Assembly: GCA_035295165.1 (NCBI GenBank)
Contig: DATGJN010000108.1
Span: forward strand, 41,685 to 105,684
Source of the DNA: a bacterium
GTDB taxonomy: Bacteria > Sysuimicrobiota > Sysuimicrobiia > Sysuimicrobiales > Segetimicrobiaceae
DNA: 64,000 nt
Direction: 5' to 3'
Shown here piece after piece: positions 60,905-62,366 of the stretch. The notes under the pieces were generated by a model that was not told where the DNA came from, ran no database searches, and saw only the letters and a program-made list of their open reading frames with translations. The position numbers and the translations under genes were made by a program. Position 1 is the stretch's first letter; each line of letters begins with the position of its first letter.

Positions 60905-61091
60905 CGTGCGCCGAATCAATGCGACTGCGGAACTCCGAAACGGCGAGGGCACCGGGAGCCTAGACAATAGTGAGCCGGATGATGAAACGCCGCAACCCGA
61001 CTCGTCCGGTACGCCGGTATCTCAATAGATGCCTGGAAACTCGGGGTAATGCCGCCTCGGCGGTAGACCGGATTCGAGGAGGAGGCCTGCC

Positions 61092-62366
61092 ATGCGTAAT
61101 GTCCGTCGGGCTCGTTGCGGGCTGAGCGCAGCGTTCTCGATCGCATTCGCGCTGAGCTTGACTGTCTATGCAGGCCCTGCCGCACGCGCGTTCACGTGTC
61201 AAGACGCCATCTACACCAGCGGGATCGCATACACTGGCGCGTCGGTGGTGATCGTCGCCTCGCCCCAGCGTCAGAACGGCGGCAACCTCTTCTACTTCTG
61301 GCAGAAAGGCGGCACCGGATCGTGGCAGAAGGAACAGGTCGCGTCAGGCAACGATTGTCCGAACAACGAGAGCGGGTGGACACTCGGTACGCCGACCGGG
61401 TACCGGTCAAACGCGATCGCATGGACGGGGACGTCGGTCGTCATTGCCGCCCTGGACCAACGAAACGGCGGCCTCTACTATTGGTGGCAGGCGAACGGCA
61501 GCACCACGTGGAACCAGCAGCCCGTGGCCGGCGGCCCCCCTGGCTGCTGCTCCTTCGGGTCCGTAGTAAACGGCGTCACAACCCCCTACATGGTAGGCTA
61601 CTCCATGCCGAGCATCGCGTGGACCGGCAGATCCGTCGTCATCGCCGCGATCGACAAGGACGGGCTGCACTATTGGTTTCAGGAGAAAGGCCAAACGACT
61701 TGGTACCATCAGCTGGTCTCGTCCCAAGATGGGAATGCCCACCCCAGCCAGCCGTCGATCGCGTGGACGGGGACGTCAGTCGTGATCGCCGACACATGCA
61801 ACGTCGGTCTCTGCTACTACTGGCAGCAGGCCGGGACGGCGTCGTGGCACCGACAGGTCGTGGACACGGGCAGCGGGGATGCCTATCCTTCCATCGCCTG
61901 GAGCGGCAACGCGGTGGTCATCGCCGCACTCCAGAACCCTGGCAACATCGTCTACTGGTGGCAAGCCGCGGGGACGGCAACGTGGCACAAGCAACAAGTG
62001 AACACCAACGGCACCCGGGAGTTCAGCGCCCCATCGATCGCCTGGGCCCGCGGCAACCCCGTCATCGTCGCCACGGACGATACCACCCAAAATGCGAACA
62101 CACCAACGTATTTGGATTACTGGTGGCAGTCGCCCGGTAGCAATGGTGCGTGGAATCTGCAACACCCTGACGGAGAGAACGGTAATTACAGTGGGTGGAC
62201 CGATCCGCGGTCGATCGCGTTGGCCGACGGCTCAGTCGTCATCACCACGACCGACGCGTGCGGCGACCTCGACTATTGGTGGCAACAGGTAGGCAGTCCG
62301 ACGTGGCACGAACAACGGGTCAACACCAACGGCGGGTGGCCGGCCGGCACTCCTGGTTGCGGGTGA
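61092..62366 (+). CDS. Secreted seven-repeat protein, predicted beta-propeller
   Basis: Exported protein of 424 residues. A Sec signal peptide (basic start, hydrophobic 11-25, cleavage after ARA at ~33) is followed by seven repeats of about 40-50 residues, beginning near residues 43, 106, 172, 219, 265, 313 and 371. The shared pattern is SIAWTGTSVVIAA, a variable turn, YWWQ, then G-T-WH-Q-V. Seven four-strand units with aromatic edges suggest a lectin-like seven-bladed propeller, as in PLL-type lectins. Several Cys pairs (C89, C152/C153, C235/C241, C390/C423) could form disulfides. GGAGGAGG precedes the ATG. No close neighbour explains its role; carbohydrate or surface binding is inferred. 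Confidence 0.8.
   Translation: MRNVRRARCGLSAAFSIAFALSLTVYAGPAARAFTCQDAIYTSGIAYTGASVVIVASPQRQNGGNLFYFWQKGGTGSWQKEQVASGNDCPNNESGWTLGTPTGYRSNAIAWTGTSVVIAALDQRNGGLYYWWQANGSTTWNQQPVAGGPPGCCSFGSVVNGVTTPYMVGYSMPSIAWTGRSVVIAAIDKDGLHYWFQEKGQTTWYHQLVSSQDGNAHPSQPSIAWTGTSVVIADTCNVGLCYYWQQAGTASWHRQVVDTGSGDAYPSIAWSGNAVVIAALQNPGNIVYWWQAAGTATWHKQQVNTNGTREFSAPSIAWARGNPVIVATDDTTQNANTPTYLDYWWQSPGSNGAWNLQHPDGENGNYSGWTDPRSIALADGSVVITTTDACGDLDYWWQQVGSPTWHEQRVNTNGGWPAGTPGCG

Follow-up and report, generated by a model that had tools for sequence, protein, structure and literature searches.

A predicted seven-bladed propeller with eight conserved cysteines, likely exported and akin in fold to PLL-type lectins

The bangle lectins of Photorhabdus (PLL, PLL2-5 and PHL; PropLec7A in UniLectin) are made of seven four-stranded blades formed by Trp/Tyr-rich units. 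Their repeat is Pfam DUF346 (PF03984), which passages of the LectomeXplore article equate with the PropLec7A lectins (PMC7778903). For PHL, sections of the published description (PMC5584973) give a fucose site formed by Thr194, Trp199 and Trp214, and a galactose, or polar, site formed by Arg186, Glu188 and Trp202 together with the equivalents of Gln203 and Trp211 from the next blade. Here we describe a gene at positions 61092 to 62366 of a 64,000-nucleotide stretch of DNA (hereafter the window; contig DATGJN010000108.1 of GenBank assembly GCA_035295165.1, positions 41,685 to 105,684, forward strand) from a bacterium of the family Segetimicrobiaceae. Its product, the window protein, is like the bangle lectins in having seven predicted four-stranded blades, a comparable unit length and units rich in Trp and Tyr. 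It is unlike them in that it has no DUF346 match, appears to lack the fucose-site and the charged polar-site residues, has longer loops and a likely signal peptide, and carries eight cysteines.

Our preferred reading, to which we give roughly an even chance, is that this is a likely exported propeller of the PLL type that binds glycans in clefts between its blades, and whose ring is likely stapled by the eight cysteines.

Seven units and a predicted closed ring

A preliminary description of the gene, made from its sequence alone, had proposed a signal peptide followed by seven near-identical units closing into a lectin-like propeller. With a hidden Markov model (HMM) of the family's repeat unit, seven units of the pattern described were recovered, with starts at residues 43, 107, 173, 221, 266, 314 and 373, at most two residues from those listed earlier. 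Each scores 36-75 bits, against a model whose training included these same units. The units are far from near-identical, since their pairwise identity is just 33-53% (median internal identity 49%), and the Trp/Tyr positions are not invariant, the Trp of the SIAW motif being replaced by Y47 in unit 1 and by L377 in unit 7.

Predicted models of the window protein and of a distant relative both form a closed ring of seven four-stranded blades, with 28 strands each, in agreement with the propeller proposed earlier; these models of two distant members are of high confidence. The blades, delimited by DSSP on the model and given with their unit HMM scores, are as follows.

61209..61343, plus strand: blade 1, residues 40-84, four strands; 53 bits
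61401..61529, plus strand: blade 2, residues 104-146; 75 bits
61530..61610, plus strand: long loop joining blade 2 to blade 3, residues 147-173; it holds a conserved GGPP-CC...N-G...P...GY block
61611..61721, plus strand: blade 3, residues 174-210; 68 bits
61755..61865, plus strand: blade 4, residues 222-258, containing C236 and C241; 67 bits
61881..61997, plus strand: blade 5, residues 264-302; 68 bits
62034..62162, plus strand: blade 6 (the most divergent unit), residues 315-357; 36 bits
62211..62324, plus strand: blade 7, residues 374-411, with C390 in a CGDLDYWWQ hairpin; 58 bits

In fold searches, both the window model and that of the distant relative found PLL-type lectins as best matches, aligned end to end over the ring, which bears out the likeness suggested in the preliminary description. 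The bangle lectins, which share this best rank with BP39L, are 14-17% identical to the window model in structural alignments, and the BP39L and CV39L lectins are 9-14% identical. The prediction for the seven diverged units is thus a PLL-lectin-type beta-propeller whose seven blades close into a ring.

Seven units are a property of the family, not a peculiarity of the window protein. The family set comprises 100 sequences, namely the window protein and P0001-P0099; a first homologue search listed 75 proteins and a profile search added 24 (P0076-P0099). Counting with the unit model at a 3-bit threshold, we found seven units in 69 sequences, six in 10, five in 10, four in seven, three in three and two in one, some of the low counts being due to short or truncated entries or to divergent units under the threshold. 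None of the 100 has more than seven by this model. Homologue candidates were limited in length and the search did not reach much longer proteins; the longest returned has 808 residues, so the ceiling at seven units is not simply a length limit.

Relation to the PLL-like propellers

At E<=1, no Pfam or NCBIfam model and no PDB sequence matched the window protein. When 61 family members were scanned singly, 15 Pfam models were touched at E<=0.1, each in five members at most, the best match being Beta-prop_ACSF4 (three members, 1.4e-7). Nearly all proteins of the family are unnamed or 'hypothetical', and the literature search, covering partial texts, found no description of it. The earlier claim that the propeller is new therefore stands at the level of the family, no Pfam or NCBIfam model matching the window protein; it does not stand for the fold, which, together with weak intermediates, links the family to known PLL-like propellers. 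This gives the family, of no fewer than 100 sequences, a predicted fold and a guess at its biochemistry that can be tested.

DUF346 gave no match in the window protein at E<=1, nor in its genome. A match was found in one of 21 genomes searched, G032, from the bacterial family to which the window genome also belongs, and falls on a PLL-like protein (L006; contig C41, 1258-2541, minus strand). The PLL-like type and its sister type, that of the window protein, both occur in this bacterial family. A homologue search with the G032 protein returned 956 proteins; all 120 matches listed carry PF26607, and one of them bears the UniRef name 'PLL-like beta propeller'. In the precomputed Pfam annotation, PF26607 is on none of the 19 closest relatives of the window protein (46-91% identical), and is present on one distant member of the family, P0099. 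Because of the missing DUF346 match and the absence of PF26607 from the 19 closest relatives, we did not place the family in the PLL-like set. The curated PLL-like models cover neither the window protein nor its closest relatives, and lectin surveys that use those models would probably overlook them.

A full-domain PLL-type model, built from 111 of the 120 listed homologues of the G032 protein, scored the window protein at E=100. At E<1e-3 it matched two of the 100 family sequences and none of 500 shuffled ones, 456 of which received a score (best 9.5 bits, E 0.011). P0075 (19.9 bits, 1.5e-6) is clearly over this shuffled background, and P0067 (11.3 bits, 6e-4) is marginal, just over it. Both were retrieved by the search that built up the family, without being rows of the family alignment A1, whose model scores them strongly (1.6e-36 and 3.5e-58, respectively). 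Conversely, neither the unit model nor the A1 model (best 0.0023) matched any of the 120 PLL-type proteins at E<1e-3. HHalign gave a non-significant profile-profile probability of 0.5-0.8%, along a full-length path that keeps register blade by blade. A direct link by sequence between the window protein and PLL was thus rejected, since none of the unit HMM, the full-domain HMM and HHalign gave a significant match; the window family and the PLL-like propellers are likely connected by distant homology and a shared fold, and not by membership.

Of other propeller signatures, a VCBS-type pattern occurs in two of the 100 family sequences, and an ad hoc Kelch-like pattern, which is too loose to be informative, is present one or more times in 66. 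Searching the viral structures of BFVD gave 122 matches at E<=0.001, the best being an uncharacterized siphovirus protein, and was uninformative.

Candidate ligand sites, alternatives and blade history

Residues of the PHL sites were placed on the window protein through the in-register, low-probability HHalign path, with PHL blade equivalences set by the 48-residue repeat. The position of Trp202 is aromatic in all seven blades, with six Trp and one Phe (W70, W132, F196, W244, W290, W345 and W397), and those of Gln203 and Trp211 are Gln and Trp, respectively, in all seven units. These three positions are largely kept in the 20 rows of the close clade, the exception being the blade-6 Gln, which is Q in four of the 20. 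Where PHL has Arg186 and Glu188, the residues are small or aliphatic family-wide (unit columns 9 and 11). Across the wider family, conservation is 98% for the first D-strand Trp and 76% for the Gln. The same Trp is kept at 99% in PLL-like units generally, hence part of the Trp/Tyr pattern is probably structural and may reflect blade packing general to PLL-like propellers.

A rebuilt polar-type site between blades is our best remaining guess for the window protein. Glycans would be bound in inter-blade clefts, at a location matching the polar site of the bangle lectins, by an aromatic residue of one blade (PHL 202) together with the next blade's Gln (203) and Trp (211), with small or aliphatic residues in the places of the PHL Arg and Glu. 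Since these charged residues are replaced, a ligand other than galactose or fucose would be expected. By analogy with domain fusions, a cell-wall or environmental polysaccharide is our best guess, because in one relative a GH25 muramidase is joined to the units, and in another they come behind a Ser/Thr kinase and its membrane-like segment. In the first of these, P0064 (399 residues), a GH25 muramidase (lysozyme) domain is followed by three units and the protein ends at a unit boundary; in the second, P0098 (808 residues), a Ser/Thr kinase is followed by a membrane-like stretch, identified by eye, and then by six detected units. The bacterial propeller domains PF26607 and PF03984 are similar to the window family in having units fused to wall hydrolases and Ser/Thr kinases, and some of the 120 listed PLL-like matches are fused to wall hydrolases, proteases or kinases.

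It is possible, as a tentative second reading, that the protein is instead an envelope scaffold or protein-binding propeller, which would bind proteins, peptides or a small molecule and no sugar, its aromatic residues serving for packing. Propellers are general scaffolds, and many of the VIA rows ranked under the lectins are WD40 scaffolds. P0089, a later-found member, lies above the cut-off of PQQ_2, a BamB-type propeller model; a few family members score with models of this type (PF13360 and PF13570), and the window protein with none of them at E<=1. In addition, the most conserved unit positions (the D-strand Trp at 98%, two Gly at 87-89% and a Val at 88%) are partly common to PLL-like units and can be structural, and the sugar-binding PLL sites are not conserved in the window protein.

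The preliminary description had gone further, suggesting seven equivalent ligand sites as in PLL-type fucose lectins; seven equivalent fucose sites we now consider improbable. Fold and blade number match, and each unit has Trp or Tyr. However, the hydrophobic fucose-site residues of PHL are not conserved from blade to blade: in the low-probability HHalign register, the equivalents of Trp199 are F67, Y129, H193, C241, V287, D342 and D394, one of them (C241) being a conserved cysteine. Most blades have also diverged individually. Against four close-clade members, the window protein has same-blade identities of 36-80% and cross-blade medians of 44-47%, and for blades 1-5 and 7 the same-blade identity is above the cross-blade median in all four members. 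Blade 6 departs from this, with same-blade identities of 36, 36, 45 and 54%, above the median in two members (54 versus 47 and 45 versus 44). Seven equivalent sites were therefore rejected; the blades are not interchangeable, which favors a small number of strong sites over seven equal ones.

An enzyme built on the seven-bladed ring, such as a CylK-like alkylating enzyme or a propeller glycoside hydrolase or lyase, is equally hard to credit, since no strong match to a characterized enzyme family was found in Pfam, NCBIfam or PDB; a profile from the 61 members does reach a sialidase, the best of its weak PDB matches (E 0.0062), yet the Asp-box motif SxDxGxTW of such propellers, searched for with a slightly relaxed pattern, is in none of the 100 family sequences, and CylK, as described in passages of PMC8916777, takes its catalytic Arg105 from an N-terminal Ca-binding domain that is missing here, where blade 1 begins at residue 40. 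The 50 VIA rows for P0025 do not include CylK, which excludes nothing.

As the blades are individually diverged across the close clade, the amplification that produced them is older than the clade. P0025 differs in this respect: its median internal unit identity is 72% and its seven possible rotations against the window protein differ little (48-54%), suggesting from sequence that its blades stem from a separate, recent amplification. The rise of new propellers from single blades is known in general (passages of PMC9218822), and the 60% mark given there is reached by three of the 69 seven-unit members. P0025, P0022 and P0031, with median inter-unit identities of 61-72%, are candidates for recent blade amplification. 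Ranging from diverged members, such as the window protein (median 49%), to recently amplified ones, such as P0025 (72%), the family offers a test case for how propellers settle their blade number.

Cysteines, export and occurrence of the gene

The eight cysteines C36, C89, C152, C153, C236, C241, C390 and C423 are what marks the close clade. Each is Cys in 20 of 20 close-clade rows, the window protein included, and the other 41 alignment rows have scattered cysteines only, one at position 236 and three at 423. Judged by strand order, the two chain ends as well as the D-A and B-C loops face the same side of the ring, which is where all eight cysteines fall. The two outermost flank the first and last blades.

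61197..61199, plus strand: Cys36, just 5' of blade 1, putatively paired with Cys423; Cys in 20/20 close rows
62358..62360, plus strand: Cys423, just after blade 7; Cys in 20/20 close rows

The even and invariant set, the likely export of the protein and a VKOR encoded in the source genome together indicate that disulfides likely staple the ring; the eight cysteines would pin it shut, with C36 pairing with C423. Loop conservation on the N/C-terminal (Cys) side is not higher than elsewhere (mean Jensen-Shannon score 0.53 over 143 positions versus 0.58 over 64), and for this reason we propose the cap as a staple and not as a binding face. Such a cysteine-rich clade may provide an unusually rigid ring for structural work. 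Outside the eight-Cys clade, P0026, P0029, P0032, P0036, P0040, P0044, P0045 and others have four cysteines after residue 30, also an even number.

Export of the 424-residue protein, to the periplasm or outside, is inferred from its signal-like N-terminus and from the presence in the genome of Omp85, a diderm marker. The N-terminus has a basic start and a 12-residue hydrophobic window from residue 14 (mean hydropathy 2.1), and the structure model shows a low-confidence helix across the region; the signal peptide claimed earlier is likely, by hydropathy and by a cleavage site recognized by eye.

61076..61085, plus strand: strong ribosome-binding-like sequence GAGGAGGAGG, read from the sequence, six bases 5' of the ATG
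61092..62366, plus strand: whole gene of the likely exported seven-unit propeller protein, from ATG at 61092 to the stop at 62366, 424 amino acids plus stop
61092..61190, plus strand: predicted signal peptide, residues 1-33; A-R-A before F34, cleavage after A33

A bolder account, which we consider doubtful, would bring these observations together. The unnamed exported family would be sister to the PLL lectins, and within it the same blade would have been re-amplified to seven more than once; in one clade of little-known diderm bacteria, eight cysteines would cap the ring at one mouth, forming four disulfides of which one staples the termini, and making a rigid glycan receptor of a specificity unlike that of any known lectin.

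The source genome has a second copy of the gene (L002/L010; G000 contig C48, 27081-28328, minus strand). The two proteins are 79-80% identical, the paralogue keeps all eight cysteines, and nonsynonymous (dN) and synonymous (dS) divergence of 0.116 and 0.408 (dN/dS about 0.28) points to purifying selection on the pair. A single-protein search found no match in the other 42 genomes of the phylum, two of the same genus included; with the gene in one of 43 phylum genomes, its occurrence is patchy and phylum-wide inheritance was rejected. Two bog metagenome-assembled genomes of Eremiobacterota carry it, in two copies and one copy, respectively; one Eremiobacterota row notes a TGA inside the aligned stretch, where a 432-residue open reading frame (ORF) is open. 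A mobile-element origin was also set aside, as no relatives were found in the plasmids, the phages or the viral contigs (pattern-based) that were searched.

The five neighbors scanned are hydantoinase A, hydantoinase B, a PLP-dependent enzyme, a cupin and an ORF without Pfam match. Among these five, the earlier remark that no neighboring enzyme explains the protein holds. The neighborhood was uninformative as a clue, having nothing obvious in common with the flanks of L003-L005 when ORF listings without Pfam scan were compared by eye.

Two of the fusion proteins merit a further remark. The layout of P0098 is that of an extracellular sensor kinase. Passages of the LectomeXplore article mention a propeller formed by dimerizing three-blade repeats (PMC7778903), and for P0064, with its three units, assembly from three units merits attention.
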